Shown here: piece after piece, positions 4,345-27,469 of the stretch
How the letters are laid out: every line of letters starts with the position of its first letter
Numbering within the stretch: the first letter of the stretch is position 1
From: a virus
Strand: one strand, 5' to 3'
Length of the DNA stretch: 49,545 nt
Virus record (IMG/VR): IMGVR_UViG_3300027759_000128
Location: 1-49,545 of that record
Position numbers and translations under genes: made by a program
Notes under the pieces: model-generated
The model's database searches: none
Told to the model about the DNA's origin: nothing
The model's input: the letters and a program-made list of their open reading frames with translations, nothing else

Positions 4345-4366
4345 TAGGGGCCACAGCCCCTATTTC
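4345..4366 (+). terminator. rho-independent terminator
   Basis: TAGGGGC (4345-4351) pairs perfectly with GCCCCTA (4356-4362) around a CACA loop and is followed by TTTCT. The stem is GC-rich in an AT-rich genome and lies directly after the small gene ending at 4341 and before the next promoter. The T tract is short, so termination may be partial. Confidence 0.65.
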
Positions 4367-4410: not shown

Positions 4411-4418
4411 TATATTTG
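4411..4418 (+). promoter_or_regulatory. Bacteroidota-type -7 element TATATTTG
   Basis: TATATTTG fits the TAnnTTTG consensus of vegetative promoters in Bacteroidota and lies 15 bases before the ATG at 4434, just after a terminator. A TTTG at 4395-4398 is too near to be a standard -33 box. This would let the host sigma factor transcribe the following four-gene operon early in infection. The element matches the consensus exactly; activity is inferred. Confidence 0.45.
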
Positions 4419-4433
4419 ATTACAATAAAAGTT

Positions 4434-5210
4434 ATGAGATTACAGACATCACCTTACCTCACTAGACAGGAAGAGTACAGAGACGACCCTTGGAAAATGC
4501 TAATGGTCTGTTTCATGCTAAATCAAACACATCACAGACAAGTAGACGAAGTTAGAGAACACTTCTTTAACAAATGCAACACAGCAGAACGTTTAATCGA
4601 CTGCCCTGACGCAGAGGTCATAGCAATAATCAAGCCTTTAGGTTTTTATAACAAAAGAGTAAAAGCTTGGAAGGAGTTCTCCTATCAGTGGTTGGACTTA
4701 GTAAAAGAATATGGCAATCCTATTTATATTCCTGCTCATAAATTAATTGGACTTAAAGGGGTTGGTAAGTACGCAATAGATTCATGGAGAATATTCCAAT
4801 GTTTCGATTACGAAGTAGAACCAGAAGATCACGTACTAAACTTCTACGTTGAGTGGGCAAGAGTAGAAAAAGAAAGAGTACTAAGAGAGCAAGCCACACC
4901 TAAGCCTATGACAGTTTATTACGCACACTATACTAATTCGAGAGAGGAACAACCTAATTGGAATAATTTAAAAGATTACGTTTGCTGCGTTATGGCAAGA
5001 ACTCAAGGCGAAGCAATAGAGAAAACTAAACGGATTGCATTAAAACGTGAAGGTGCAGTACATCTTAAAATTGCAGGTATAGGATTCGGTAGAGAGGAGT
5101 GGGTAGACGAAGAGCATTGGTTGGATACTGACGAATCTTATTACAGTGTACACGTAGATGCAATGCAAAAAAGAATGGAAGCAAGAAGACAATTAGAATC
5201 ACAAAATTAA
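4434..5210 (+). CDS. MBD4-like HhH-GPD DNA glycosylase
   Basis: I start the gene at ATG 4434 (258 aa). Residues 18-33 (DDPWKMLMVCFMLNQT) match the first helix of MBD4-type glycosylases. LKGVGKYAIDSWRIF at 107-121 is the helix-hairpin-helix, and EPEDHVLNFY at 129-138 carries the expected catalytic Asp (D132), as in the MBD4 PEDHKLN segment. Such enzymes remove T, U or related bases opposite G. There is no four-Cys iron-sulphur motif as in EndoIII. Beyond residue 150 lies a ~108-residue C-terminal extension I do not recognise. It heads an operon of four genes with gaps or overlaps of a few bases. Function as a glycosylase is well supported; the substrate is unknown. Confidence 0.8.
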   Translation: MRLQTSPYLTRQEEYRDDPWKMLMVCFMLNQTHHRQVDEVREHFFNKCNTAERLIDCPDAEVIAIIKPLGFYNKRVKAWKEFSYQWLDLVKEYGNPIYIPAHKLIGLKGVGKYAIDSWRIFQCFDYEVEPEDHVLNFYVEWARVEKERVLREQATPKPMTVYYAHYTNSREEQPNWNNLKDYVCCVMARTQGEAIEKTKRIALKREGAVHLKIAGIGFGREEWVDEEHWLDTDESYYSVHVDAMQKRMEARRQLESQN

Positions 5211-5213
5211 AAT

Positions 5214-6386
5214 ATGATTACAGCAAACCCAAAGTGGATTACAACCACACCGTATTACGAAGAATTTTTACGCTATTACCAAATGGCTAAAACACAACAA
5301 GAAGAGTGTAACTTAGGAATTATAAAACATGCAGATAGCTCTGTGCCCGATGACTTAATGAAACACGTTGAACTATACGACGTGGTTGAAAGAAAGTACG
5401 CAGGATTCTCACAGATAGTTAACGATGTTTTTTATGGTTTTTCCGAAGATCACCCTTACTGGAATAAAATGACTCAAGGTCATATGACAAAACAGAGAGA
5501 AACAGTTTCTAAAAATTGGACAGGTAAGCGCGACGTGTTCGGTTTAAGAGAGTGGATCTATTTGTTCTTGTTTCACAGATTAACAGGATCTGCTATTAAC
5601 TATTCGATGAAACCCTCAGGGTATCACAACACGCTCTTGTTCGAGATGCATCAAGCTGACAATATACCTCAGCTGATAGACATCATAAAAGGAGCAACTA
5701 AACCATTCTACACATCGGTAGGCTATCAGTTCCCAAGTTTTCCTAAACCTCAAGGCAATTACAAACGTGGAGGAGATTATTTCCTTTGCGAATTCGTTCC
5801 TCAACTTGCAGAAGACGTAGCTAACTTCTTAGAGCAGGGCGAGAAAAAAGACTTGAGAGAAGTAGGAGACTTTATGTTTAAGTGGAACACAGACAGAGGC
5901 CTTAGAGCTTTCAGATTTCAGTACGCTGCATTTATTGCTGACATAGCCGATTGGTTCCCTGAATTCGTTAACCGTGAAAGTCCATTTTATTACGGTACGA
6001 ACGCAAAGGAATGCGTTAGCTATTTAGCAAAGAAGTCTACTAAAATGCAAGAAGAAGTATTTTTGGATTCAGTGATGATGAAGATATACGACGACACTGG
6101 CAGTTATCCGTACAACGCAGAGGACGTAACGTGCGACTCAATTCGATGGATTGAGAACTACGTAAAACCCGGAGCAGACTACGATCACTTAGATTTCGAT
6201 CATGTATGGAATAGCAGCAGTATTATAGACCATCCATACGGTCGACAGAAAGCAATGTTAGATCTTGGTCTTGTCCCAAGTTTTAACGGTATTACAGAAC
6301 ACCCTTCCGATGACAAGGTACTTAAATCACTTCTTATAACAGAAGAGCAATACAAGGACAGGGTACAACAACATTATAACAAATAA
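5214..6386 (+). CDS. possible thymine-pyrophosphorylase-like (AADT) base-modification protein
   Basis: A 390-residue protein starting three bases after the glycosylase gene. Notable segments are LFLFHRLTGSAINYS (118-132), YHNT (137-140), TSVGYQFPSFPKP (167-179), and FRFQYAAFIADIADWFPE (233-250) followed by SPFYYGTNAKE. The last block aligns with AAMSYP-like residues 195-220 of the protein at 6946-7950, so the two are related. The arrangement recalls predicted alpha-glutamyl/putrescinyl thymine pyrophosphorylases, which are thought to be HhH-glycosylase-derived enzymes that put adducts on hydroxymethyluracil in phage DNA. This is an impression without a search. A protein of unknown function is the safe reading. 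Confidence 0.35.
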   Translation: MITANPKWITTTPYYEEFLRYYQMAKTQQEECNLGIIKHADSSVPDDLMKHVELYDVVERKYAGFSQIVNDVFYGFSEDHPYWNKMTQGHMTKQRETVSKNWTGKRDVFGLREWIYLFLFHRLTGSAINYSMKPSGYHNTLLFEMHQADNIPQLIDIIKGATKPFYTSVGYQFPSFPKPQGNYKRGGDYFLCEFVPQLAEDVANFLEQGEKKDLREVGDFMFKWNTDRGLRAFRFQYAAFIADIADWFPEFVNRESPFYYGTNAKECVSYLAKKSTKMQEEVFLDSVMMKIYDDTGSYPYNAEDVTCDSIRWIENYVKPGADYDHLDFDHVWNSSSIIDHPYGRQKAMLDLGLVPSFNGITEHPSDDKVLKSLLITEEQYKDRVQQHYNK

Positions 6387-6946
6387 TGGCACACACAACA
6401 AACAAATCTGCAAAGCAGACAAAAAACATCCACATCCAAGGATTAACAGGAGAAAAAATATTTAACAACGTTATGCAAGATATGGGCTACAAAGTCCACA
6501 TCAATCCAGATCCATACGGATACAACGATCACTTAGTATTTTTTGATAGACAAACTCCAACCATTACTCAATTAAAAACGATTTCTCCTTATCATCAACA
6601 CAATTGTTGGGCATTAGATGCCGATTCAGGTAAACAAGTAGAACACGCTTTAAAATGTGAGAAACTTTATATCTTAAGTATTCCTATGGTATGGGAAAAC
6701 GAATACGATGGTTGGTTACTAGAAGTGGATCTTAACATTCTAAAGACAGAACCAAATTCAATTAGACCTTTACCGAACAGCACTCAGAATTCTTTGATTA
6801 TTCCAAGATCTGAACGCTACGTTAGAAAGATATACAAATTGAATAAAACAGAAGAAGACATCATTTTAAAGTATGCAGTATCAGATTATGCAAAGAAGAC
6901 TTCTACTTATGTTAAGAAAAAACCTACAAAAAAAATAGCAAAATAA
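6386..6946 (+). CDS. PD-(D/E)XK-like nuclease (predicted)
   Basis: A 186-residue protein whose ATG overlaps the preceding stop (TAATG). It shows the order expected for the restriction-endonuclease fold: a first helix with Glu (GLTGEKIFNNVMQDMGYKV, E23), a strand with Asp (YNDHLVFFD, D48), and TITQLKTIS (Q62-x-K64) as the Q/E-x-K pair, then an alpha/beta segment with CEKLYILSIP. The C-terminus is lysine-rich, suggesting DNA contact. Its place between two probable base-modification proteins and behind a DNA glycosylase suggests that it acts on DNA according to modification state. The fold call is pattern-based and the substrate unknown. Confidence 0.5.
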   Translation: MAHTTNKSAKQTKNIHIQGLTGEKIFNNVMQDMGYKVHINPDPYGYNDHLVFFDRQTPTITQLKTISPYHQHNCWALDADSGKQVEHALKCEKLYILSIPMVWENEYDGWLLEVDLNILKTEPNSIRPLPNSTQNSLIIPRSERYVRKIYKLNKTEEDIILKYAVSDYAKKTSTYVKKKPTKKIAK

Positions 6947-7950
6947 TGAGTGAAATTTTATTTCCAAACACTTGCGAAGTAGAATTTAAAGGCAAAAAAC
7001 CAAAGGACTCTTGGATGCGAGATTGGTCGTTAGATCAGCGTATCGAAAAGTTCTTTGAGTTCTGCCAAAAATTCGATAACAGAAAAGATTCTCTATTAAA
7101 ATCAGAGTATCAAATCTTTTCACATCGCTTGCATTGGCACGAGCATCCTTACTGTTACTACATGAGGGACAATGTTACAGACAACGAACTAAGAATGTTT
7201 TATACTTTAGTGTTTAGTTTTAGTAACGAACATTGGGGCACATTTATGAAATTGGCAGAAGAAGGCATTGATGCAACTAAACAACATTTCGTTAATAACC
7301 GCCACGCTAGAAACGATCTATTTCAAATCTATTATCCAAAAGGTACAGACGTTAAGAGTTGGTTATTAAACGGACCTAGAATTGCTGGTAAAGTGTTAGC
7401 CTATCTTTTACAAGACGTTGAAGAAGGCCGACGTGGAAAGTACACAATGATGGAGTTCGCTAAGAAGTTGGAGACTTACTTTAAAGAGTATCAAAACTTT
7501 AGAAGCCCTTTGTATCCATGTAAGAACACTGCAAGATATATCGCAATGAGTTATCCGCACTTGGTAGATCCTGAGTCCATTCTATTCGGTGGTACTGGTC
7601 ACTTCGATGGATTGCACCAGATATTTGGAGGTCAGAACCTAAACGGTAAAGTTAAGTACACTATTAACGAAGCTGGAGTATTCACACCTGAGAACAAACA
7701 GGCAGAGCAATGGTTATATCAGATGGATCTGCTAGTGAATCACCCGTTAAACCCAATGACTGAACAGAAGTATCTGAACATTGAAGACAAGACCTGTTTC
7801 TTTTGGAAACACATCGCAATCTCTCATGGTGAAAAGAAGCCTACCAAGAATATTCCTTACACTTGGATTTTTCCAGACACGTTCAGTTTGGCAAAAGAAG
7901 GCCAAGAAGAGTTTTTAGAGAATATACAACATAGGAGCTTGATGTACTAA
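6946..7950 (+). CDS. protein related to 5214-6386, possible base-modification enzyme
   Basis: A 334-residue protein, again starting with a TAATG overlap. The segment CKNTARYIAMSYPHLVDPES (193-212), followed by ILFGGTGHFDGLHQIFGG (213-230), aligns with the AAFIADIADWFPEFVNRES-FYYGTNAKE block of the first-named neighbour. Both show a helix, an aromatic-Pro turn, a Ser, a Gly pair and an A/G-rich turn. Near the C-terminus IEDKTCFFWKHIAISHGE holds conserved-looking Trp, Lys and His. The pair may form a heteromer or act in succession. If the pyrophosphorylase comparison is right, they would modify thymine derivatives in phage DNA. Low certainty on function; good certainty that it is a real gene. 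Confidence 0.4.
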   Translation: MSEILFPNTCEVEFKGKKPKDSWMRDWSLDQRIEKFFEFCQKFDNRKDSLLKSEYQIFSHRLHWHEHPYCYYMRDNVTDNELRMFYTLVFSFSNEHWGTFMKLAEEGIDATKQHFVNNRHARNDLFQIYYPKGTDVKSWLLNGPRIAGKVLAYLLQDVEEGRRGKYTMMEFAKKLETYFKEYQNFRSPLYPCKNTARYIAMSYPHLVDPESILFGGTGHFDGLHQIFGGQNLNGKVKYTINEAGVFTPENKQAEQWLYQMDLLVNHPLNPMTEQKYLNIEDKTCFFWKHIAISHGEKKPTKNIPYTWIFPDTFSLAKEGQEEFLENIQHRSLMY

Positions 7951-8498: not shown

Positions 8499-8996
8499 CT
8501 ACTCTTCGGCCTCGAGCTCGGGTGTGATTGGATTAACGTCCCTGCGGTACCATTTGCCGGCTATATTCTCGTTATAGCTTTCTACCTCTAAAACTCTTAA
8601 GGTCATTTGATAATAGGTCTCCCAATAGCTCATCTGTTTCTTCGTGGTGCATAACCTTAATATCTCTCTAGCGAATATCTCTTTACCAAACAGTTTAATA
8701 TCGTCTATGATCAACTTACTAGATCCGTAGTAGTCTGCCCAATTGCTCTCTTTGATCTCCTTTCTTTTCTTTGGGATACGGCCTGGTTTTACCCACTCTG
8801 AAATTTCCTTCTTTGTTAGGGTCTTTGTTAGAACGTTTCTAAGGATTTTTTTGCCGACGTAAAATTTGCCGGTCTTATTGTTTGTGACTTTGTAAACGAA
8901 TCCAACTACGTTCTCTGGAAAATCAGAAAGCTGAGTAAGCGGTTTTACAAAATTAACGGGATCGTGATTACCATCGTACGTAAACCAATTTGACAT
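8499..8996 (-). CDS. GIY-YIG-type endonuclease-like protein
   Basis: I take the start as the ATG at 8996 (165 aa), because a promoter-like motif lies 12 bases upstream of it and inside the longer possible frame. GFVYKVTNNKTGKFYVGKK at 32-50 is a GIY-YIG core (G-F-V-Y and Y-V-G). DYYGSS at 88-93 and the helix SYWETYYQM, with a candidate catalytic Glu, follow. This is the family of phage GIY-YIG proteins that include free-standing homing-type nucleases. Lys-rich stretches between suggest DNA binding. It is the last gene of the long - strand block; its role in this phage is not evident. Confidence 0.7.
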   Translation of the reverse strand: MSNWFTYDGNHDPVNFVKPLTQLSDFPENVVGFVYKVTNNKTGKFYVGKKILRNVLTKTLTKKEISEWVKPGRIPKKRKEIKESNWADYYGSSKLIIDDIKLFGKEIFAREILRLCTTKKQMSYWETYYQMTLRVLEVESYNENIAGKWYRRDVNPITPELEAEE

Positions 8997-9007
8997 AGAC
9001 TGTTTTC

Positions 9008-9018
9008 TAATAAATATC
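9008..9018 (-). promoter_or_regulatory. candidate late promoter motif (sense GATATTTATTA)
   Basis: On the - strand this reads GATATTTATTA and ends 11 bases before the ATG at 8996. It lies inside the longest open frame of that gene, which supports the shorter start. Confidence 0.5.
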
Positions 9019-9324
9019 TTAGCTATCCCAACGAATAACAAAAGTCATATCTGTATTAGGAGGAATTGGGTACGGAGTAGATAGCTTTCCAACGACCAAT
9101 AATTCGTCTGCATCGTTGTATATGCCCACGGTAGTTGCGTAAGGTCTAAACTCTGATCCTGTTACTGCGTCTATGTAAGATCCTGAAGTACCTGATCTTA
9201 TAGCGCTGGGATTCAAGGTATAATTAAAATCGTTTTCATTCACTTGGCATCTAACCTCTTTTTGATAGATGGTAGACTCTGCTTCGAAAGTGACAGTAAA
9301 TGGTTCGTATTGGATAAATGGCAT
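9019..9324 (-). CDS. small virion-type protein homologous to the C-terminus of 27470-28540
   Basis: A 101-residue beta-rich protein. The stretch FNYTLNPSAIRSGTSG, followed by TTVGIYNDADELLVVGKLS, matches the end of the structural protein encoded at 27470-28540 (YNYTSNPSFISGSG and TTVGMYNDNNELLAVAKMS). The same pattern, 'T-V-G-hydrophobic-Y-N-D ... L-L-A-V-A-K', is common in structural proteins of marine T4-like phages. It therefore looks like a free-standing copy of that terminal domain, perhaps a small virion decoration or fibre-attachment protein. A promoter-like motif lies only four bases before the ATG, implying an almost leaderless message. Confidence 0.6.
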   Translation of the reverse strand: MPFIQYEPFTVTFEAESTIYQKEVRCQVNENDFNYTLNPSAIRSGTSGSYIDAVTGSEFRPYATTVGIYNDADELLVVGKLSTPYPIPPNTDMTFVIRWDS

Positions 9325-12393: not shown

Positions 12394-14043
12394 TTATTTT
12401 TGTTTCAATATATAATAATCTTCTATTAATAAACCGTCTAATTGGGTTTTTTCTAAAATTGTAAATGCGTCTTTAAGAGTAGAAAGTATAGGGCTTCCAT
12501 CAACATTGAAAGAAGTATTTAATAAAACACCTACTCCAGTTTTAGCATCCATTTCTGTTAACAAATCGTATAACCATTCGTTCTCGTCTCTTGTAACAGT
12601 TTGAACTCTAGCGGTTCCGTCTACGTGAGTGATTGCTTGTAATTTCTCTCTCCACTCCTCTTTAACCAATGGACAAAAACTCATCCATCTAGAATCTCCT
12701 TCCCACTCAAAGTATTTAGACACATCTTCCAATCTAACTACTGGTGCAAATGGTCTGTACCACTCTCTATGTTTTACCTTTTCGTTTAGTATCTCTTTCA
12801 TATTCGCGATAGAAGGATTGCAAAGAATGCTTCTATTACCCAATGCTCGTGGTCCATGTTCGGCTTTGCCTCTTGCAACTCCAATGATTCTGCCTTCTAT
12901 CAAATCGTCAGTCATCTTATTAATATCGAAGTAAGAAGTAACGGTGTTATAAGAATTCTGAATGAAGTGAGTTAAAGATCCCATATCCATCAACTCTAAT
13001 CCTGAATATGTCACATCTATTGGTTGCTCTGGTTTTAATTCGTTTAACATTAATCCTAGTGCAATACCGCAGTCGTTTGGATTAGGGCCAACAAATACTT
13101 TTTTATTAAACTCTTGTACTAATCTTGTGTTTAGCAATATGTTTAATCCGCATCCTCCCGCCATACACACCGGCAACTCTGGATGCTTCTCTAAATGAGG
13201 TTTGGCTATTTCTAAGAAGCACTCTTCAAAAGCTCTCTGTGAAGTCGCAGCTACATCGTAAGCTGTCTGGCCTGTTAATCTGGCTTCTACACTAAAAGTA
13301 ACTCCTATCTTTTCACCTAACTCTTGAATTTTCTTTTCGTAGTCATAGTATCCTGTAGAATCCCATGGACCAGTGTGAGATCCATCTGGTCTGCTCTTGT
13401 AAAAATGCATGAAGTGAGGTACCCATTCTTCGATAGCATTTCCGTAAGACGCAAGACCCATAATTTTACCAGAGTAAACTAGGTTACCTATATTAAGAGG
13501 TTCTTTTTTAATATCTCCCAAGTAATCACCGAATACCATGTAAGGAAATCCTAAGTCATAATAAACGTGTTGTGTATTCTCGTATGGATTCAAAACGCAT
13601 TCTAATAATTTTGGAGACTCACCTCTTTCACAGTGGTATATATTAAAACATCCGTCGTTTCCTCCACCGTCAAAAGAAAAAGCTAAAGCTTCTTTATAAG
13701 GAGACTGATAGAAAACGCCTGCAGCATGAGACTGGTGGTGCAAACCATGATAATAGTTCTTTGCTTTTATGAAAGTTTGTAATTCATATCTTTGTTCAAC
13801 TAATACATCACAATTTAAAAAATAACAGTTCTCAAATTCTGAGATGTTTAATTTTTCCATTATGAACTTAGGGATGAACTTAGCAAAGAATACTATATCG
13901 TTATATTTTGGACACAAGTATTGCGCTAAACCGCTGTTTTTAAAATTCAGAAATCTTTCTACTTCTAAAACTAAAAGTATCTTTCCGTCTTCTTCTACTA
14001 CGTAAGCAGCATTGTGAGATCCATAAAATGATATATTCGCCAT
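12394..14043 (-). CDS. NodU/CmcH/TobZ-type O-carbamoyltransferase
   Basis: A 549-residue protein, the normal length of the family. The N-terminal Kae1-like domain shows HHQSHAAGVFYQSP, FSFDGGGNDG and GGCGLNILLNTRL. The C-terminal domain shows GVARGKAEHGPRALGNRSIL, REWYRPFAPVVRLED and LLNTSFNVDGSPIL. All are hallmarks of NodU-type carbamoyltransferases, which use carbamoyl phosphate and ATP to put a carbamoyl group on a hydroxyl, usually of a sugar. In this cluster the likely acceptor is a sugar on the fibres, although a nucleotide or surface glycan is possible. Ten bases separate it from the upstream gene. Family certain, acceptor unknown. Confidence 0.9.
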   Translation of the reverse strand: MANISFYGSHNAAYVVEEDGKILLVLEVERFLNFKNSGLAQYLCPKYNDIVFFAKFIPKFIMEKLNISEFENCYFLNCDVLVEQRYELQTFIKAKNYYHGLHHQSHAAGVFYQSPYKEALAFSFDGGGNDGCFNIYHCERGESPKLLECVLNPYENTQHVYYDLGFPYMVFGDYLGDIKKEPLNIGNLVYSGKIMGLASYGNAIEEWVPHFMHFYKSRPDGSHTGPWDSTGYYDYEKKIQELGEKIGVTFSVEARLTGQTAYDVAATSQRAFEECFLEIAKPHLEKHPELPVCMAGGCGLNILLNTRLVQEFNKKVFVGPNPNDCGIALGLMLNELKPEQPIDVTYSGLELMDMGSLTHFIQNSYNTVTSYFDINKMTDDLIEGRIIGVARGKAEHGPRALGNRSILCNPSIANMKEILNEKVKHREWYRPFAPVVRLEDVSKYFEWEGDSRWMSFCPLVKEEWREKLQAITHVDGTARVQTVTRDENEWLYDLLTEMDAKTGVGVLLNTSFNVDGSPILSTLKDAFTILEKTQLDGLLIEDYYILKQK

Positions 14044-18929: not shown

Positions 18930-21293
18930 TTAGAAGCTTCTTACAGCTCTAACTGGATAAGGGAATGGAGTATTTTTTGAAGCTTCAAATTGGCCGCCGA
19001 AACCAAATATTTGAACCCATGCTGTAGTTGAGCTAGCTTCGGTAGACGTCCAATAGTAATTAGATGTAAATCCTCCAATTGCATCCTTATTTAAGTATAG
19101 TTTATTTAACTCATCTTTACTAGGTAAATACCAATCAGAATATCCGCCCTCTACTAAATCTCCGCATAGTCTAGCTGCAATACCGGCATCTGCACAACCA
19201 GCCATAATATCGATAGTGTTTTGGTTACCTGTTCCTAATGCAGTGCCATCAGCTCCTGATATAGTTGTTCCTTGACATCCCCATATAGCGCCTGAAGATA
19301 TGTCTGCTATTGTCGCCACTAATCCTTTAGTTACCCCAGCATCGTATCCTGGATCTCCTGATTGTAGTATGTATGCGATAACTCCACCTTTAGTTACTTG
19401 ACCTATGTAAGGAGCTGGTGTAGTAGGAGTTATAGTAGGTGTTATGCTTATGGTAGGTGTTATAGCTGGAGTACCACTTATCGCTGGAGTACCACTTATT
19501 GCTGGAGTAGAACTTATAGAAGTTGCAGGCGTAACTGTAGGGAAAGGGGTAACGCTTACAGCTGAAGTAACCGACATACTAGGTGTAGTTGATACTGTTT
19601 GAGTAACTGATACCGATGGTGTAACCGAACTTCCTGGAGTAGCTGAGATTGTTGGAGTTACCGAAATAGTAGGAGTTGTTGATACCGAAGGAGTAACTGT
19701 TGGAGTTACTGAAGATCCAGGAGTAGTCGAAATAGTAGACGTAACAGAAATAGTAGGTGTTATCGATAGAGTACGAGTAGGAGTAGGCGATGGAGTCGGA
19801 CTAGGAGCAGGTTCTTGGAATCTAGTATTGTAAGTAGCGAATAAGGATTGAATTGTTGATAAGCTCAATACGCCATCGTAAACTTTAATGAATCCAATAT
19901 CTGCAGTTTGAATTTCCGTGCCGCTAGCTCTACTAAACAATCTTAATTGGTTAAATCCTCCACCGCCTGCACTTGTAGCAGTGTACAAATAAGTGGAAGG
20001 CGCAGTACCTAAAGGAGTAGAACTATATAGTCTTCCTGTACTAGTAGTATTGTCCCAAGTTGCCCAATCCAAATGCCATGTAGTATCTATAGGTCCTCCG
20101 CTTAAGTTAACAGTAAAATTTGGATAGAATGTATTTGCACGACCGTTATAAGCGCCCATTAACCAGTCTTTAGGCGTTTCGTTTTGTGTATTCAGCAATC
20201 TACCCGAAGAAGTAGCAGACAGTCTATATACCATAAACACAGTATAGCTTTGGCCTGTCACGTAGTTAGGGCCTCCGTAGATGTAATCTGTTCCTATGCC
20301 GTTAGACTTAGAAAACATACCGCCATAATTAGCTTGCCAACTAATACTGCCTGCGTTGTTTACCGCGAGTGTGAATGCGCTTCCACTTACCGTAGATCCG
20401 TTGGTAGGTACAGCTGAATAATTGGCGGCGTCTAAGTTATAAATTAAACTAGGAACAAAAGCAGATGTAGAAGGAGTTATGGATACACTAGGAGTTACAC
20501 TCGTAGTTATTGAAGGAGTTATTGAAACTGACGGAGTTTTTGAAATACTAGGTGTTGCAGATACGGTTACACTCGGAGTTATCGATACGCTATTAGAAAT
20601 AGATATTGATGGAGTAACAGAAATAGAAGGCGTTATTGAAACCGTAGGAGTTATTGAAGTACTTGGAGTTATTGAGACTGAAGAGGTCACGCTAGGAGTA
20701 ACAGAAATAGAAGGCGTTACTGAAGCGCTAGGCGTTACTGATATTGAAGGAGTCACCGATATGGTTGCTGTAACCGAAGTACTTGGAGTAATTGATACGC
20801 TAGGTGTAGAAGATATGGATTCGCTTGGAGTAATTGAAACGCTTGGAGTAATTGAAACTGAAGGCGTAACTGATATTGAAGGTGTGATAGAAATACTTGG
20901 AGTAACAGAAATGCTAGGCGTTACAGAAATGCTAGGCGTAATAGAAACTGAAGGTGTAACTGATACTGAAGGCGTAACAGAAATAGAAGGAGTTATCGAT
21001 ACGCTTGGAGTAGATGAAGGACTAATTGATACTGTAATGCTTGGAGTAACTGAGATAGAAGGCGTAGTGGATATAGAAGGCGTTATAGATATAGAAGTAG
21101 TAACTGAAGGAGTTATTGATGCAGAAGGAGTGGCAGAAGGATTGACAGCTAACTGCTCAGGAAGTTTATACCCCTGAGTGCTTTTGACTGTATTCAATAC
21201 CTTTAAATCCACACCCTTACCATTAATAAAATTGGTATAGTCTGTATTTGGTAGTTCTCTACTCAGTCTAGATGATTTCCTAATTAACGCCAT
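18930..21293 (-). CDS. repeat-rich tail fibre/adhesin with LamG-like and DUF1566 (Lcl-type) domains
   Basis: A 787-residue protein. Residues 1-50 are a basic N-terminal part, probably for virion attachment. Residues 52-277 and 493-628 are six-residue repeats of the type S-[IV]-S-[VI]-T-P. Residues ~281-492 look like a LamG/concanavalin-type beta-sandwich (LIYNLDAANYSAVP, YTVFMVYRLS, IGFIKVYDGVLS). Residues 634-787 are a DUF1566/Lcl-C domain (GGVIAYILQSGDPGYDAG, DWYLPSKDELNKLYL, YYWTSTEAS, VRAVRSF). In Legionella the Lcl-C domain ends a collagen-like adhesin that binds glycans. I infer a receptor-binding fibre whose Ser/Thr/Pro shafts are rigid spacers and possible glycosylation sites. Confidence 0.8.
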   Translation of the reverse strand: MALIRKSSRLSRELPNTDYTNFINGKGVDLKVLNTVKSTQGYKLPEQLAVNPSATPSASITPSVTTSISITPSISTTPSISVTPSITVSISPSSTPSVSITPSISVTPSVSVTPSVSITPSISVTPSISVTPSISITPSISVTPSVSITPSVSITPSESISSTPSVSITPSTSVTATISVTPSISVTPSASVTPSISVTPSVTSSVSITPSTSITPTVSITPSISVTPSISISNSVSITPSVTVSATPSISKTPSVSITPSITTSVTPSVSITPSTSAFVPSLIYNLDAANYSAVPTNGSTVSGSAFTLAVNNAGSISWQANYGGMFSKSNGIGTDYIYGGPNYVTGQSYTVFMVYRLSATSSGRLLNTQNETPKDWLMGAYNGRANTFYPNFTVNLSGGPIDTTWHLDWATWDNTTSTGRLYSSTPLGTAPSTYLYTATSAGGGGFNQLRLFSRASGTEIQTADIGFIKVYDGVLSLSTIQSLFATYNTRFQEPAPSPTPSPTPTRTLSITPTISVTSTISTTPGSSVTPTVTPSVSTTPTISVTPTISATPGSSVTPSVSVTQTVSTTPSMSVTSAVSVTPFPTVTPATSISSTPAISGTPAISGTPAITPTISITPTITPTTPAPYIGQVTKGGVIAYILQSGDPGYDAGVTKGLVATIADISSGAIWGCQGTTISGADGTALGTGNQNTIDIMAGCADAGIAARLCGDLVEGGYSDWYLPSKDELNKLYLNKDAIGGFTSNYYWTSTEASSTTAWVQIFGFGGQFEASKNTPFPYPVRAVRSF
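19410..19817 (-). repeat. Ser/Thr-Pro repeat block 2 of the 787-aa fibre
   Basis: Degenerate 18-base units encoding mainly S-x-T-P-[ST]-x hexapeptides, including TPGSSVTP and ISGTPAISGTPA variants. They link the LamG-like domain to the C-terminal DUF1566 domain. Confidence 0.85.
20463..21140 (-). repeat. Ser/Thr-Pro repeat block 1 of the 787-aa fibre
   Basis: About 226 residues of near-regular hexapeptides such as PSISVTPSVSITPS. Many 18-base units differ at third codon positions, so the amino acid pattern is conserved better than the DNA. This points to selection on the protein sequence. Confidence 0.9.
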
Positions 21294-21307
21294 TTTATAT
21301 TTTTAAC

Positions 21308-21321
21308 TTTATCTTTTTAGT
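21308..21321 (-). repeat. 14-base repeat ACTAAAAAGATAAA after a fibre gene (copy 2)
   Basis: Identical to 18915-18928 and again one base after the stop codon, here of the 614-residue fibre gene. The ATG of the next fibre gene (21293) follows 14 bases downstream. Confidence 0.6.
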
Positions 21322-21322
21322 A

Positions 21323-23167
21323 TTATACTTCACCAACATAAGCGGCAATTGCTCCATTTGCTGTTGGGTAATAATTGCCATATGAATTGCTTGCAGGTGA
21401 TCCAGGATTATATTGATAATCACAATTATTATATATTAAGGTGCCTTGTGGATCTTCTACATCTAAACAAGCTACAGTTCCTATAGAAGCATTAGCGTAT
21501 GCATACATATTTACGCTTATATAATCACCAGGAGTTACGTTGAATGAGTTACTTGTATTTGCTCCATTTTCATATACTACTTGAGTACCATTTACTAAAA
21601 TCTGTAAATATCCACCACCACCATTGTTATTAACCCAACTCCATTGTATGTTGTAGAGCGCTACTGATAGACTAGGAGTTATTGATGCAGCCGGTGTACT
21701 ACTTACTGCAGGAGTACTACTTACTGCTGGCGTACTACTAACAGCCGGTGTATTACTTACCGCAGGTGTACTACTTACCTCAGGTGTACTACTTACCGCA
21801 GGTGTGCTACTTGCCTCAGGTGTTAATGATATACTTGGAGTTCTACTTATAGAAACCGAAGGAGTAACTGATGCGCTAGGCGTTGTCGAAGAATCTGGTG
21901 TTACTGAAACTGAAGGCGTAACAGAAGCACTTGGAGTTTTAGTAGGCGTTATTGAAACAGAAGGAGTAACGGAAACGCTAGGCGTTACACTAGGTGTTAC
22001 TGTAATCGAAGGCGTTGTCGAAGATGCCGGAGTAACTGAAACCGAAGGAGTAACCGAAGCACTTGGAGTTCTAGTAGGCGATATTGAAGCACTAGGTGTT
22101 GTCGAAGATGCAGGAGTAACTGATATGCTAGGAGTTCTAGAAATGCTTATTGAAGGCGTACTTGAAATAGAAATACTAGGTGTAACTGAAACTGGAGCAG
22201 TTACGCTAACACTAGGAGTTACGCTAATACTAGGAGTTACACTAATACTAGGAGTTACACTAATACTAGGAGTTGTGCTAATACTAGGAGTTGCGCTTAT
22301 AGAAATACTAGGCGTAACAGATATTGAAGGCGTAACTGATATACTAGGCGTAATAGATACCGAAGGCGTTGAAGATAAACTAGGAGTTATCGAAATACTA
22401 GGAGTTACTGATTCACTAGGTGTAATAGATTGACTAGGCGTTCTAGTAGGTGTAATTGATACCGATGGAGTTTCAGAAACGCTAGGAGTGATAGAAACTG
22501 AAGGAGTATTAGAAACAGATACAGACGGTGTTATAGAGATAGTCGCACTAATACTAGCACTTGGAGTTCTAGAAACCGAAGGAGATAGAGATACCGACGG
22601 AGTTATAGAAATGCTAGGCGTTCTACTAGGCGAAAGCGAAGGCGTATTTGTAACAGATAGACCAGGCGTACTAGAAATAGAAGGCGTTACCGATATACTT
22701 GGAGTGATTGATACACTAGGCGTAGTAGAAGGCGTTCTAGTTGGTGTAAGAGTAACGCTAGGAGTTATTGATATAGTAGGAGTAATACTTGGAGTAAAAC
22801 TAGGAGTTCTAGAAGGATTCGGTGTACTTGTTATAGATAAAGTCGGTGTAACAGATATGGAAGGAGTTGCGCTTAAACTAGGAGTATTACTAATAGAAGT
22901 ACTCGGAGTAGCGCTTGGGGTAAGAGATAAAGTAGGCGTAACCGAAGGAGTAATCGAAGGAAGCGGCGTAAGAGAATAAGGAACTCCGTCACCAGGCACA
23001 CCAGGAACATATAAAATGTCTGATCCCATTTCAACTTGGGTCTTGAAATTAGCTGTTTTTATCCTTGTCTTATCAGCGTAATATGGAGTATTTGTATAAT
23101 TCTTAACCTCATTATTAGTCAGATCCGGAGCAAACTTAGATTTTTTATGATTCCTTAACTCGTCCAC
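21323..23167 (-). CDS. repeat-rich tail fibre-like protein (614 aa)
   Basis: A 614-residue protein beginning at a GTG (MDELRNHKKSKFAPDLTNN), because no ATG precedes the open part and a promoter-like motif lies nine bases upstream. Residues 1-63 are a unique N-terminal domain. Residues 64-503 are almost entirely S-x-T-P repeats, ending in SSTPAVSSTPAVSNTPAV variants. The last ~110 residues (YNIQWSWVNNNGGGGYLQI to AAYVGEV) form a beta-rich domain with two Cys (VACLDVED, YNNCDY). I infer a fibre or whisker with a small C-terminal tip. The repeats contain hundreds of Ser and Thr next to Pro. No family match for the tip. Confidence 0.7.
   Translation of the reverse strand: MDELRNHKKSKFAPDLTNNEVKNYTNTPYYADKTRIKTANFKTQVEMGSDILYVPGVPGDGVPYSLTPLPSITPSVTPTLSLTPSATPSTSISNTPSLSATPSISVTPTLSITSTPNPSRTPSFTPSITPTISITPSVTLTPTRTPSTTPSVSITPSISVTPSISSTPGLSVTNTPSLSPSRTPSISITPSVSLSPSVSRTPSASISATISITPSVSVSNTPSVSITPSVSETPSVSITPTRTPSQSITPSESVTPSISITPSLSSTPSVSITPSISVTPSISVTPSISISATPSISTTPSISVTPSISVTPSISVTPSVSVTAPVSVTPSISISSTPSISISRTPSISVTPASSTTPSASISPTRTPSASVTPSVSVTPASSTTPSITVTPSVTPSVSVTPSVSITPTKTPSASVTPSVSVTPDSSTTPSASVTPSVSISRTPSISLTPEASSTPAVSSTPEVSSTPAVSNTPAVSSTPAVSSTPAVSSTPAASITPSLSVALYNIQWSWVNNNGGGGYLQILVNGTQVVYENGANTSNSFNVTPGDYISVNMYAYANASIGTVACLDVEDPQGTLIYNNCDYQYNPGSPASNSYGNYYPTANGAIAAYVGEV
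21659..22978 (-). repeat. Ser/Thr-Pro repeat block of the 614-aa fibre
   Basis: The longest repeat block in the window: about 440 residues of the S-x-T-P hexapeptide, with occasional TPTRTPS and STPAVS variants. Several 18-base units are identical at the DNA level, for example the run around 22200-22290, which suggests recent expansion by slippage or recombination. Confidence 0.9.
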
Positions 23168-23176
23168 GCTTGTTTT

Positions 23177-23187
23177 GTATAAATATT
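23177..23187 (-). promoter_or_regulatory. candidate late promoter motif (sense AATATTTATAC)
   Basis: On the - strand this reads AATATTTATAC, nine bases before the GTG start at 23167 and ten bases after the stop of the GT60 gene at 23198. It would let the 614-residue fibre be transcribed separately from its neighbour. Confidence 0.5.
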
Positions 23188-23197
23188 TGATAAAAGC

Positions 23198-24457
23198 TTA
23201 TTCGTAACTGATCTTCTCTTCTATTCTGTCCATCCAGCCCTTAGATTCGCTGTGGGGCCAAACTCTCCAAGAAACTGGCTGCTTATCGCTTTCGTACTCC
23301 CTCCAGATTTGAATGAACTTATCGTCAGGATTCATACTTATTAGACCTTTTAATTCTCCTCCGGAAAGATCTTGTCGGTGCAGATCGTTACCGTCAGAGT
23401 CTAAAAAAGCTACTGCTGCTGAATCGTAGTCAGTTTCTGTTAGAACTCCCTTATATACATTTATACAATATTTTATTTTGCTAACCAGCCCTGTTTCGTA
23501 GTCAGAAATTATGGGAGGAAACTGATTGGCTATAGTCTCTTGGTGGATCTGTCTTGTTTTAAACTTAAGGCCAGCGTATCTTTCATAATCTTGTAAAGTT
23601 CTTTCAGTTCCAAAACCAAAACCTTCTAAACTCTTTCTTTTGCAAGGCGGACATCCGCCCTCGTCCATTTCAAACAAGGCTCTAAATCTTGCGTAAGAGG
23701 CTTTGTCTAAATCACCGTAAGTAGAGTGATCGTCCCAATGTCTTTGCTTTCCTTTTCTTGTGTATTCGTGCCAAACTATAGGTCGGTGTGGAGAAAACAT
23801 ATCGTATCCATGAGTGTAGGCTCTGGCAGATAAACTGGTCTCTTCTCCATGAAAATAGAATTTTGCATCGTAAGGAACCTCTTTAGCAAACTTACCAATA
23901 GTGAATATAAAGTGACCTGATAAAAATCTAGTTTTAAATGGTTCTATTCTATTTTCCCAATTAGGTACATGAAATGGCTGTAAAAACACTGCGCCTTCTG
24001 GTAAAAATCTCATGATGTTTAATCCCCACACTTCTTGTACTCTGCCTGTTGGATCGTTCTCTGGAAAATAGCCTGGAATGTAAGCGGAGATAATTGGTTT
24101 TTTGTGGCCTTTAACTTGTAAATAGCTAACGTAGTCCTTTAAAGTTCTGTCCCAATTCTTTGTAAATCTGTGATGAGAATCTAATTGAAAGTAGTAGTCT
24201 TCTCCGTTGTAGTAATCTTGAATTTTATTTCTTACCCAACAAACTCCTTTAGAGTCTTTGTGATTGATATCCAGTATGGTAAATCTATTGTCATTTATAA
24301 ACTCAGTTAAAGTATCCCAAGCGTCTTCATCAGAGTGTTGCCAACCCACACAGATATGTAAGTTTTCTGGTTCTTGACAGTTATTGATTAGATCACGTAA
24401 AGTTGGTAAAAGTTCGGGGTCTCTATAAGACGCTATCGAAACGAAGATTTTTGACAT
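23198..24457 (-). CDS. GT60-type polypeptide GlcNAc-transferase-like glycosyltransferase (copy 2)
   Basis: A 419-residue paralogue of the protein at 17608-18879. FVSIASYRDPELLPTLRDL (5-23), GVCWVRNKIQDYY, FQLDSHHRFTKNWDRTL with D-S-H at 93-95, LSGHFIFTIGKFAKE, FHGEETSLSARAYTHGYD and RPIVWHEYTR are the GT60 (GlcNAc family) elements in order. The C-terminal region starts with ERTLQDYERYAGLKFKTR, like copy 1, and ends GWMDRIEEK. CPPCKRK at about 267-273 is a Cys pair absent from copy 1. It lies between two repeat-fibre genes, so it is probably made with them and may act on them. Donor and acceptor are inferred from the family. Confidence 0.85.
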   Translation of the reverse strand: MSKIFVSIASYRDPELLPTLRDLINNCQEPENLHICVGWQHSDEDAWDTLTEFINDNRFTILDINHKDSKGVCWVRNKIQDYYNGEDYYFQLDSHHRFTKNWDRTLKDYVSYLQVKGHKKPIISAYIPGYFPENDPTGRVQEVWGLNIMRFLPEGAVFLQPFHVPNWENRIEPFKTRFLSGHFIFTIGKFAKEVPYDAKFYFHGEETSLSARAYTHGYDMFSPHRPIVWHEYTRKGKQRHWDDHSTYGDLDKASYARFRALFEMDEGGCPPCKRKSLEGFGFGTERTLQDYERYAGLKFKTRQIHQETIANQFPPIISDYETGLVSKIKYCINVYKGVLTETDYDSAAVAFLDSDGNDLHRQDLSGGELKGLISMNPDDKFIQIWREYESDKQPVSWRVWPHSESKGWMDRIEEKISYE

Positions 24458-24514
24458 AACTCAATATTAAACAATTTTTGGAACTTAATAAAATTTTAGT
24501 TTAAAGTGCTATTA

Positions 24515-26290
24515 CTAAAGAGGTTGACAACTTGTGGTTATGTTAACTGTAACGGTGGTAGCGCCTCTAACAAAAGTGCTTCCATGAGCATAATAGTCTC
24601 CATCTATATATACTACATTAACCATTCGATAAGAACTAAATCCGTAAACGTGGTATTCGTTGGTAAGAACATCTCCATAACCGTATTGGCCTCTTGTCAC
24701 CGTTGTTGATGGAGTATTTCCAAAGGTAACTTCGCTTCCATCAGTACAACCAGCATTAAAATACATATCTGCCTGAACTCCGTTATTTGCAGTGACTGTA
24801 AAATCTCCATCAACTGCTGTGTCTAAATAAAATTGGAAAACGTACTTATTCAATCCGTTTACATAAAGTCCTCCAAAACTTAAAGTAGCTGATGTCGGCC
24901 AACTGAAGTTGGTAGAAGCCCTAGCATAATAAGTTCTACCTCCTACTACACTAAATGTTTTATTTGTGTTAGAATCGTAATCTACAGTAACATCGTTTAT
25001 TGTATTACCAGCGCTATCAAAAATATGAAGTCTTCTTGTTGAAGTTCCATAAGTAGGTTTTGGATATGCCGGCTGATCTGCTGTGGCTTGCACAAATAAA
25101 GAATCATCTTGATATATTATTCCGCCTGCATATAAAACATCACCAGGGGTTGCAAATACCTCGTTAACGATATTACCTCCATTTTTATTTATGGCTATGT
25201 TTCCATCTAAGAAAATTAAACCAGTTTCATTGTATTCAAAATTACTATAGTATAATGCAGTTATAGGTATTGCAGGTCTAGATGTACTAACTGCAGGTGT
25301 ATTACTTACTGCCGGCGTATTAGATACTGCTGGCGTTGTTGATATCGAAACGCTTGGAGTACTAGATATAGAAACGCTTGGAGTGACAGAACTAGACGGC
25401 GTAACAGATATAGAAGGAGTTACCGATTGACTTGGTGTTCTAGTAGGCGTAATAGATACCGATGGAGTTTCTGATACAGATGGAGTTACAGATATGCTAG
25501 GAGTTCTAGTCGGAGTAATAGATACTGAAGGAGTAACTGATACTGAAGGCGTTACCGATTGACTTGGCGTTCTAGTAGGTGTAATAGATATTGAAGGAGT
25601 AACAGAAGTCGATGGCGTAATAGACACCGATGGAGTAACAGATATCGATGGAGTAGCAGAAAATCCTGGGGTTACAGATATACTAGGCGTTCTAGATATA
25701 GAAACGCTTGGAGTACTAGATATAGAAACGCTTGGAGTCACTGTAATACTAGGAGTCGTAGATATACTTGGAGTTCTAGATATGGATACACTAGGCGTTG
25801 CTGATAAACTAGGCGTTGCCGATAAACTAGGTGTAACAGATACAGAAGCTGTAACGGATGACGCTGGAGTAACCGAAACCGATGGAGTTACGGATACTGA
25901 TGGAGTTACAGATATACTAGGCGTTCTAGATATAGAAACGCTTGGGGTCATGCTAGGCGTAACTGTAACTGTAATTGAAGGAGTAACAGATATAGAAGGC
26001 GTCGCTGAAATAGAGACGCTCGGAGTAACTGAGAATGAAGGCGTTACTGATGGTGATGGAGTTGGACTTAAAGGAACAATATATCTAAAGTTACTATTTT
26101 GTCCGCAAGCGTCCATATTTTCCAAAACTATGTATTGAGCTGCATCAGGAACAGATACAACATAACCAGCGTCCAAAGTACTAGCTTTAACATTCTGTTC
26201 AACTATATTGTTAAAGTTGTCCCAATAGATAGTAAAAGGCCCCGTTGCCATTCCTCTCTTTGTAATTTGTATGTATATTGATTGTGCCAT
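24515..26290 (-). CDS. repeat-rich tail fibre-like protein (591 aa)
   Basis: A 591-residue protein. Residues 1-74 form a small N-terminal beta domain (SIYIQITKRGMATGPFTIYW). Residues 75-337 are S-x-T-P repeats with TPTRTPSQSV variants. The last ~250 residues are beta-rich, with segments such as GLIFLDGNIAINKNGG, RRLHIFDSAGNTINDVTVDY and YVFQFYLDTAVDGDFTV, ending CQPL. I recognise no family for the tip. The order N-domain, shaft and beta tip is typical of phage fibres, and the shaft is shared with the three neighbouring fibre genes. It probably binds host surface or other fibres. Confidence 0.7.
   Translation of the reverse strand: MAQSIYIQITKRGMATGPFTIYWDNFNNIVEQNVKASTLDAGYVVSVPDAAQYIVLENMDACGQNSNFRYIVPLSPTPSPSVTPSFSVTPSVSISATPSISVTPSITVTVTPSMTPSVSISRTPSISVTPSVSVTPSVSVTPASSVTASVSVTPSLSATPSLSATPSVSISRTPSISTTPSITVTPSVSISSTPSVSISRTPSISVTPGFSATPSISVTPSVSITPSTSVTPSISITPTRTPSQSVTPSVSVTPSVSITPTRTPSISVTPSVSETPSVSITPTRTPSQSVTPSISVTPSSSVTPSVSISSTPSVSISTTPAVSNTPAVSNTPAVSTSRPAIPITALYYSNFEYNETGLIFLDGNIAINKNGGNIVNEVFATPGDVLYAGGIIYQDDSLFVQATADQPAYPKPTYGTSTRRLHIFDSAGNTINDVTVDYDSNTNKTFSVVGGRTYYARASTNFSWPTSATLSFGGLYVNGLNKYVFQFYLDTAVDGDFTVTANNGVQADMYFNAGCTDGSEVTFGNTPSTTVTRGQYGYGDVLTNEYHVYGFSSYRMVNVVYIDGDYYAHGSTFVRGATTVTVNITTSCQPL
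25281..26068 (-). repeat. Ser/Thr-Pro repeat block of the 591-aa fibre
   Basis: About 260 residues of hexapeptide repeats, many of the form SVSITPTRTPSQSVTPS. DNA units of 18 bases are closely similar to those of the other three fibre genes, giving scope for recombination between them. Confidence 0.9.
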
Positions 26291-26296
26291 TTTCTA

Positions 26297-27460
26297 TTAA
26301 CAAGTTGAAAATTGTGCTTGTACAACACCTCCGCTAACAGAAAATATTGCACCAGCACTATTAGCTATAGAAGTTATATTTGTAAATAAGACGTTGTATG
26401 ATTGATACAGTTTAACTCCGCTTGCTACATCTGTAACGCTAACACCTCCAACTAATCCGAAATAAACATTACTTGCATTTGCTACAGGGAATCCGTTAGA
26501 CTGTATAAAGCAAGGATTGTAGTAAGTTCCTATTGTATTACCCAAAATAGGAGTGATTGATACCGAAGGAGTTATGGATACGCTAGGAGTTCTACTTATA
26601 GAAACGCTAGGCGTAACTGATATCGAAGGAGTGACAGACAATCCTGGGGTTACAGATATACTAGGCGTTGATGATATAGAAATACTCGGAGTAATTGATA
26701 TGCTTATCGAAGGAGTCAAAGATATTGTAGGACTCAAAGATGGAGAAACAGTTATCGATGGAGTCTTAGACGGACTTGGAGTGATAGAAACGCTAGGCGT
26801 AACCGATATAGAAGGCGTATTTGAAGGAGTCAATCCAGGCGTTAAAGAAATACTTGGAGTTGGACTAGGCGGCGGTATTACTGATTGAATAAAGAAATCA
26901 AATGTTGGATCTTGAAAAATACAAACATAATCAGGATCGGTAAATACTATTACTCCTTGAGCATAGAATACATTTCCTACTTTTTTATTATTAACTAAGG
27001 TATCAATTAAGTTACCGTTTCCGTCGTCAACAATGTGATAGTTAGTACTGTCTGGATTTAGAGGCAATAGATGCAAACTATTTCTAGCTACTTGCTCCCC
27101 AAATTCGTTTCTTGGAATATAGAAAAAAGCTATTTGAGAGTTTTGAGCCAAAGGAAAGTATCTAGTATCCTCGTCGCCAGATCCAGATGCGGCGGTAGAT
27201 TGCCACTGAGGATCGTAACCGCTACCAGTTGCTAATAGAGAACCTGAGATATATTCTTTATAATAAAGTTGTTGAATCAACTCGTAGTTAAGAGCGTTGT
27301 TATCCAAAGAACCAGTCACGGTCATAGGATGATTAAAGCCCCTATTTATTGTGATTCCAACATCGTCTAAAGATTGACTATAATATGATGAAGAATACTT
27401 TAATTTAATAGGAGCTGAAGATATATCTGAAAACCTTATCGTATTCTTCGAGCTGCTCAT
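26297..27460 (-). CDS. virion protein with short Ser/Thr-Pro repeat segment (387 aa)
   Basis: A 387-residue protein. Residues 1-195 look like a structural domain of T4-like marine phages: IAFFYIPRNEFGEQVARNSL, HIVDDGNGNLIDTL, GNVFYAQGVIVFTD. That pattern, with a D-D-G-x-G-N turn and 'G-N-V-F-Y-x-x-G-V', is one I associate with baseplate-near or fibre-attachment proteins. A repeat segment of ~110 residues follows, then a ~75-residue tip (GTYYNPCFIQSNGFPVAN to FSTC). It joins the conserved structural block to the fibre block and may attach the fibres. Exact role unknown. Confidence 0.65.
   Translation of the reverse strand: MSSSKNTIRFSDISSAPIKLKYSSSYYSQSLDDVGITINRGFNHPMTVTGSLDNNALNYELIQQLYYKEYISGSLLATGSGYDPQWQSTAASGSGDEDTRYFPLAQNSQIAFFYIPRNEFGEQVARNSLHLLPLNPDSTNYHIVDDGNGNLIDTLVNNKKVGNVFYAQGVIVFTDPDYVCIFQDPTFDFFIQSVIPPPSPTPSISLTPGLTPSNTPSISVTPSVSITPSPSKTPSITVSPSLSPTISLTPSISISITPSISISSTPSISVTPGLSVTPSISVTPSVSISRTPSVSITPSVSITPILGNTIGTYYNPCFIQSNGFPVANASNVYFGLVGGVSVTDVASGVKLYQSYNVLFTNITSIANSAGAIFSVSGGVVQAQFSTC
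26550..26880 (-). repeat. Ser/Thr-Pro repeat block of the 387-aa virion protein
   Basis: The shortest of the repeat blocks, about 110 residues, beginning PPPSPTPSISLTPG. The units have the same hexapeptide pattern as the other three genes. Confidence 0.85.
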
Positions 27461-27469
27461 TGTTTATTT

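Follow-up and report, generated by a model that had tools for sequence, protein, structure and literature searches.

The closest described counterparts of the genes treated here belong to two kinds of phage DNA modification. In thymidine hypermodification of the M6/ViI type, found in the DNA of phage M6 (PMC6449724), two proteins of one fold family are accompanied by a pyridoxal phosphate (PLP)-dependent enzyme of phrog_7093, a hydroxymethylase of the thymidylate synthase (TS) family and a dCMP deaminase. Cytosine is the target in phage T4, with its dCMP hydroxymethylase (gp42) and glucosyltransferase, and for the 5-hydroxymethylcytosine (5hmC) carbamoyltransferase described by MetaGPA (PMC8670742). 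The window analysed here, the 49.5-kb (49,545-nt) IMG/VR virus record IMGVR_UViG_3300027759_000128, stems from an uncultured T4-like phage and contains an operon of four genes, g1-g2-g3-g4, whose open reading frames were read directly from the window sequence and all lie on the plus strand. Loci of the g2/g4 type share with the M6/ViI systems all the components just listed, but g2 and g4 are not recognised by the models of that fold family (PF18723/PF18724), no P-loop kinase was found, a protein termed p353 is added and the hydroxymethylase is of the dCMP type (Asp177) instead of the dUMP type (Asn). With T4 and the MetaGPA systems they have in common a gp42-like hydroxymethylase, PRA-PH, a dCMP deaminase and, as argued below, a cytosine target, whereas the proposed last step would depend on g2, g4, p353 and the PLP enzyme and not on the transfer of glucose or carbamoyl groups. 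We lean towards the view that the g2/g4 operon hypermodifies cytosine, as 5hmC, in the phage's own DNA, with g1 in a repair function and g3 as an accessory. g2 and g4 would then probably represent a large, as yet unnamed branch of phage DNA-hypermodification enzymes that acts on cytosine.

The genes g2 (5214–6386, plus strand) and g4 (6946–7950, plus strand) encode proteins of 390 and 334 residues, respectively, for which Pfam, PHROGs and NCBIfam yielded no match. Their AlphaFold2 models (pLDDT 87.4 and pTM 0.87 for g2, pLDDT 84.3 and pTM 0.84 for g4) were compared with viral models by Foldseek, and the top match of each was a close relative bearing the UniProt name “Amino acid:DNA transferase” (E=7e-40 and 9e-29, respectively). 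Among the further matches are the SP10 5-hydroxymethyldeoxyuridine (5hmdU) DNA kinase (probability 0.99) and a helical-domain protein of Delftia phage PhiW-14 belonging to HMUDK_hel (0.90) for g2, and aGPT-Pplase1 (1.00) and a g2-like protein (1.00) for g4; g2 and g4 find each other with a probability of 1.00 at 13–14% identity. Both thus match the HMUDK_hel fold with probabilities of 0.90–1.00 (SP10, PhiW-14, aGPT-Pplase1), the TM-scores of the remote matches being only 0.3–0.45. The protein of the Bacillus phage SP10 differs in that its helical domain is fused to a kinase, none of which was found with g2/g4; identity in the SP10 and PhiW-14 matches is about 10%. The nearest folds of g2 in the PDB, two 8-oxoguanine glycosylases, are not significant, and PDB sequence searches with g2, g4 and p353 gave no significant match. 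The original prediction had described g2 and g4 as a related pair of putative base-modification proteins, open to refutation by a lack of matching folds; the resemblance to the aGPT-Pplase families sustains this description at the fold level only.

Judged by sequence, neither protein is a member of PF18723 or PF18724. The curated cut-offs of HMUDK_hel (PF18723, aGPT-Pplase1) and of amino acid:DNA transferase (ADDT; PF18724, aGPT-Pplase2) are missed by the window proteins and by 40 relatives, although UniProt gives g2- and g4-like proteins the latter name, and no protein of the 20 records searched reached that of HMUDK_hel. A hidden Markov model (HMM) of HMUDK_hel ranks g4 above 391 background proteins with an area under the curve (AUC) of 0.98, as against 0.38–0.58 for unrelated profiles. 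The motif pair GxGxxxG[ILMV] ... CxxxK, chosen by eye after inspection, is present in 76 of 77 g4 proteins, 39 of 43 HMUDK_hel proteins and 2 of 700 background proteins, and in none of 83 g2 proteins. A set of 395 genomes from the phylum of one record (G029), with six matches to HMUDK_hel and none to ADDT, served only to widen the HMUDK_hel alignment. Three further approaches were discarded: HMM ranking of g2, since an unrelated TS model reached an AUC of 0.87, so that only the g4–HMUDK_hel value was used; profile-profile comparison, in which a spurious g2–TS pair scored equally well; and a g2–ADDT motif proposed by eye, which occurs in 0/41 ADDT proteins. On the basis of the predicted structures we are rather confident that g2 and g4 belong to the HMUDK_hel/ADDT (aGPT-Pplase) fold superfamily, in which they appear to form a paired, divergent branch, being related to each other at the fold level only.

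Confirmed relatives in IMG/VR number at least 579 for g2 and at least 407 for g4; each protein has about 90–100 invariant residues, and the two genes are nearly always neighbours across hundreds of uncultured phage contigs. Gene context was counted at 48 loci flanked by 3 kb or more of sequence on either side, comprising 20 window-like loci (class A) and 28 of the wider family (class B). Class A loci contain g4 (18), g1 (17), g3 (8) and p353 (5), and class B loci p353 (26), the PLP enzyme (25), g4 (19), a TS-family protein (12), dUTPase (11), MazG (10), dCMP deaminase (8) and g1 (1), with g3 in none. The PLP enzyme is assigned to phrog_7093 (E=1.2e-66 and 3.6e-22), which also includes M6 gp52. 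These counts agree with the DNA-hypermodification setting originally predicted, and a role of g2 and g4 in such a pathway is, in our estimation, highly likely. That they retain a glycosylase-like fold for some other DNA transaction (repair, replication or recognition) and lie near nucleotide genes only as early genes appears improbable. The fold resemblance of g2 to glycosylases, the structural genes adjoining the pair in the window's clade and the absence of a modification gene from the window itself would suit this explanation, but p353, encoded by merely 43 of 50,697 GenBank phages, recurs in 26 of the 28 class B loci, the PLP family is specific, and p353 is elsewhere fused to an HMUDK_hel-like domain.

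The arrangement of the pathway genes can be followed in near-complete relatives. In the closest one (G001; 174 kb, g2 97% identical) the PLP enzyme, p353, DUF6378 and dUTPase are grouped at one contig end, and in G002 (180 kb) a TS-family enzyme, dCMP deaminase, DUF6378 and the PLP enzyme lie together and p353 adjoins g2. By analogy, the window's phage probably also encodes the PLP enzyme, p353 and associated genes elsewhere in its genome. A third relative (G003; 183 kb) combines g1, g2, g4, the PLP enzyme and an Asp177 enzyme in one record. Two loci with the PLP enzyme stand apart. Microcystis phage Mae-JY30 (L361:5387-7705) encodes it after two ParB/sulfiredoxin genes, and g2/g4 were not found; there it possibly serves another modification route. 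In a 260-kb record (L271; G024:C1:6034-6864) the match to it includes two in-frame stop triplets, TAG and TAA, explicable by gene decay, frameshifting or recoding of the genome.

The TS-family enzymes bear on the identity of the modified base. Position 177 (E. coli numbering) tells the two kinds apart, Asp marking dCMP hydroxymethylase and Asn the enzymes that act on dUMP, and TS, PRA-PH and dCMP deaminase mark modified-cytosine phage contigs in MetaGPA (PMC8670742). Asp177, as in T4 gp42, is found in all 18 aligned TS-family proteins of the operons and in 5/5 from whole records (G003, G008, G022, G023 and G024, that of G023 belonging to a genome already represented among the 18), and a dUMP hydroxymethylase of the Asn177 type is encountered neither among the aligned operon proteins nor in these five records. 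Asn177 is present in phage M6 and in three bacterial neighbours of HMUDK_hel. Many of the operon proteins also share the block MRSNDVVFG.xxNDYAWQ with T4 gp42, their nearest annotated phage homologue is named deoxycytidylate 5-hydroxymethyltransferase, and their PRA-PH and dCMP deaminase companions are those seen with modified cytosine in MetaGPA. The dCMP-type enzyme is present in the relatives G002 and G003. Because the operon hydroxymethylase is, by its residues, of the dCMP type, cytosine, in the form of 5hmC, is a likelier target than thymine, and we favour it with fair confidence.

Thymine, the base to which the original prediction assigned the adducts, was also our first reading, dropped once Asp177 had been seen in every TS-family protein examined. 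The prediction had further pointed to a dUMP hydroxymethylase and an hmdU kinase as genes to be sought; the former did not turn up, and the 5-hmdU DNA kinase family PF18748 is represented in 0/20 records, some of them fragments. A modification of thymine through 5hmdU, as in M6, ViI, SP10 and PhiW-14, with hm-dCMP converted to hm-dUMP by dCMP deaminase or with a separate dUMP hydroxymethylase, is supported by the fact that 5hmdU is the substrate of every characterised member of the HMUDK_hel/ADDT fold family, by the PHROG shared between the PLP enzyme and that of M6, and by the frequent dCMP deaminase (8/28 class B loci). We nevertheless hold it to be unlikely in view of the uniform Asp177 and the missing kinase; moreover, T4, a cytosine-modifying phage, likewise encodes a dCMP deaminase.

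Several points weigh against hypermodification of cytosine by g2 and g4. The link to HMUDK_hel/ADDT is drawn from structure predictions and from a motif picked out by eye; the Pfam models miss all 40 g2/g4 relatives scanned, and profile-profile alignments of g2/g4 with HMUDK_hel or ADDT, and of g2 with g4, are not significant. No g2 or g4 relative occurs among the GenBank (cultured) phages. The 49.5-kb window, a fragment of its genome, contains no hydroxymethylase, PLP enzyme or p353, their presence being deduced from relatives, and conservation beside a modification pathway leaves the step of each protein unfixed. Finally, the dCMP deaminase could possibly turn hm-dCMP into hm-dUMP, as in one version of the thymine route.

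The lack of a kinase draws attention to p353, which retains the GDSH, G(N/S)ID and VH motifs of SGNH hydrolases. In Aeromonas phages 31 and 44RR it forms the N-terminal half of a 795-residue protein with an HMUDK_hel-like C-terminal half (partial Pfam match to HMUDK_hel, E=0.0036; hhalign E=2.7e-4 over 227 columns, with five other profiles at 0.36 or worse), and 19 records contain such a fusion. SP10 and the bacterial protein L367 have a P-loop kinase fused to the same kind of HMUDK_hel-type domain. As p353 occupies the place of the kinase, this SGNH-like protein may stand in for the hmdU kinase as an activating enzyme, an analogy that we rate as evenly balanced. The fusion protein (ORF233c of Aeromonas phage 31, L360:5968-8352, also in 44RR2.8t) is annotated as hypothetical. 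Like the g2/g4 system, it brings p353 together with a domain of the HMUDK_hel kind in phages that also encode a dCMP hydroxymethylase (PMC2993671), but it is a single chain in place of separate g2 and g4 proteins. ORF233c is a candidate for the DNA modification of phages 31 and 44RR, which are gene-42-positive and without glucosyltransferase. In Aeromonas phage 25 (L363:2635-5906) a putative glycosyltransferase and a UDP-galactopyranose mutase (PF03275, E=5e-54) precede a p353 homologue, which suggests that p353 also serves a sugar-type DNA modification.

Combining these data we propose the following scenario, the order of steps being presumptive. The gp42-like dCMP hydroxymethylase together with pyrophosphatases of the MazG/dUTPase type would supply hydroxymethyl-dCTP, and the polymerase would insert 5hmC into the phage DNA. 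With DNA as their presumed substrate, g2 and g4, whose glycosylase-like folds might flip the base out of the helix, would then act with p353 and the PLP-dependent enzyme to exchange the hydroxymethyl group or build on it. The product might be a hypermodified cytosine protected from host nucleases. The part of g1 would be to excise hmU, T or U paired with G, as left when the 5-substituted cytosine is deaminated, g3 would be an accessory nuclease, probably mobile or exchanged, and in the window's T4-like clade g2/g4 would be encoded apart from the remaining pathway. More tentatively, such a pathway may be widespread and so far unrecognised, with HMUDK_hel/ADDT-like enzymes, otherwise known only from thymine, acting on 5hmC, p353 replacing the hmdU kinase and an MBD4-like enzyme guarding against deamination as in vertebrates. 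If true, hundreds of uncultured phages, many of them T4-like, would hold a hypermodified base made by a branch missed by current models, and the aGPT-Pplase superfamily would extend from thymine to cytosine along a kinase-free route. It would also offer enzymes able to put amino groups on cytosine, assign a function to a protein still labelled “hypothetical” in two long-studied Aeromonas phages, 44RR and 31, and provide a phage parallel to the vertebrate repair of deaminated modified cytosine.

The first gene, g1 (4434–5210, plus strand), encodes an MBD4-like HhH-GPD DNA glycosylase (residues 1–148) followed by a clade-specific C-terminal domain of about 110 residues (4881–5207, plus strand) without a family match. 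The glycosylase assignment was anticipated from the sequence and is confirmed by phmmer against the PDB, with MBD4 as best match (E=1.8e-16; endonuclease III, 8.5e-7), by a match to PF00730 (E=9.4e-7) and by alignment to MBD4, in which both the LxGxGKYxxDS helix-hairpin-helix and the EDH motif with the catalytic Asp are in place. g1 has no visible Fe-S cluster motif and, unlike MBD4, lacks a methyl-CpG-binding domain, in whose place stands the phage-specific C-terminal domain. In 11 of 37 g1 genes only the C-terminal domain is kept, upstream of g2, and the glycosylase part has been lost (L055:653-1021, L064, L067, L138 and others). Among these phages g1 accompanies the g2/g4 pair only in the window clade. 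When 5hmC is deaminated, hmU is left facing G, a mismatch on which MBD4 is known to act, and repair is therefore the simplest role for g1, which would fit the removal of deaminated 5-substituted cytosine better than an attack on unmodified DNA. In the unrelated Stenotrophomonas phage AXL_1 (L152:8908-11094) a g1 homologue adjoins a MazG-type pyrophosphohydrolase and a “thymidylate synthase” which, having Asp177, is probably a dCMP hydroxymethylase.

The third gene, g3 (6386–6946, plus strand), encodes a PD-(D/E)XK-like nuclease. This earlier assignment stands as far as the residue signature goes, E23, D48 and Q62-x-K64 (the E...D...(E/Q)xK pattern) being invariant across seven relatives at 31–68% identity, but no family model of Pfam, PHROGs or NCBIfam matches g3. 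Its identity to the L008 protein falls to 34–42% between flanking proteins that are 92–97% identical, which fits a nuclease that is mobile or has been exchanged, and it occupies the slot between g2 and g4 in 8/20 class A and 0/28 class B loci. By its occurrence it is an accessory, dispensable gene. The original prediction had suggested that DNA of the host or of rivals is destroyed through excision of unmodified bases by g1 and cleavage by g3, with g2/g4 protecting the phage DNA. In support, g1 adjoins g2/g4 in 17 of the 20 window-like loci, and T4 has enzymes of other kinds that break down unmodified DNA. However, g1 and g3 are found in only one and none, respectively, of the 28 class B loci, 11 of the 37 g1 genes are without the glycosylase domain, G002 has no g1 at all, g3 evolves far faster than its neighbours and MBD4 enzymes act on mismatches. 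This model is accordingly very improbable, and the idea of two-component restriction was abandoned after the co-occurrence count.

The four genes are as tightly packed as originally described, with a gap of 3 bases between g1 and g2 and overlaps of 1 base each between g2 and g3 and between g3 and g4. Purifying selection acts on all of them, with dN/dS of 0.05–0.09 for g1, g2 and g4 and 0.33–0.40 for g3 (two computable comparisons between relatives). For g1, the ATG at 4434 is favoured as start; an upstream TTG at 4416 falls within a putative -7 box. The upstream signals claimed before, a terminator and a host-type -7 box, fared less well. A G+C-rich 7-bp hairpin (4345–4362, plus strand) is visible as a weak terminator candidate, but was not called by the terminator scan, the stem being followed by too few T. 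The sequence TATATTTG (4411–4418, plus strand) is there as an unproven lookalike of the Bacteroidetes -7 box, but -33/-7 pairs in the window are near chance (16 observed versus 9.7 expected, with 6/100 shuffles reaching 16), and it is not one of these 16 pairs.

Downstream of g4 lies a GIY-YIG-like protein (8502–9041, minus strand), present at 52 of 95 unique loci, nearly all window-like, and steadier in its presence than expected for a homing endonuclease. A 549-residue carbamoyltransferase (12394–14043, minus strand; PF16861, E=2.7e-65), shared with G003 and G009 and not with G001 and G002, belongs to a family that includes the 5hmC carbamoyltransferase (PMC8670742); its neighbours on both sides are glycosyltransferase-like genes, an arrangement tied to unmodified contigs in the same study. 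Further along (18930–28540, minus strand), long proteins with TPSxSxTPS-type repeats (787, 614, 591 and 387 residues) lie amid glycosyltransferase-like genes and are probably glycosylated adhesins or fibres.

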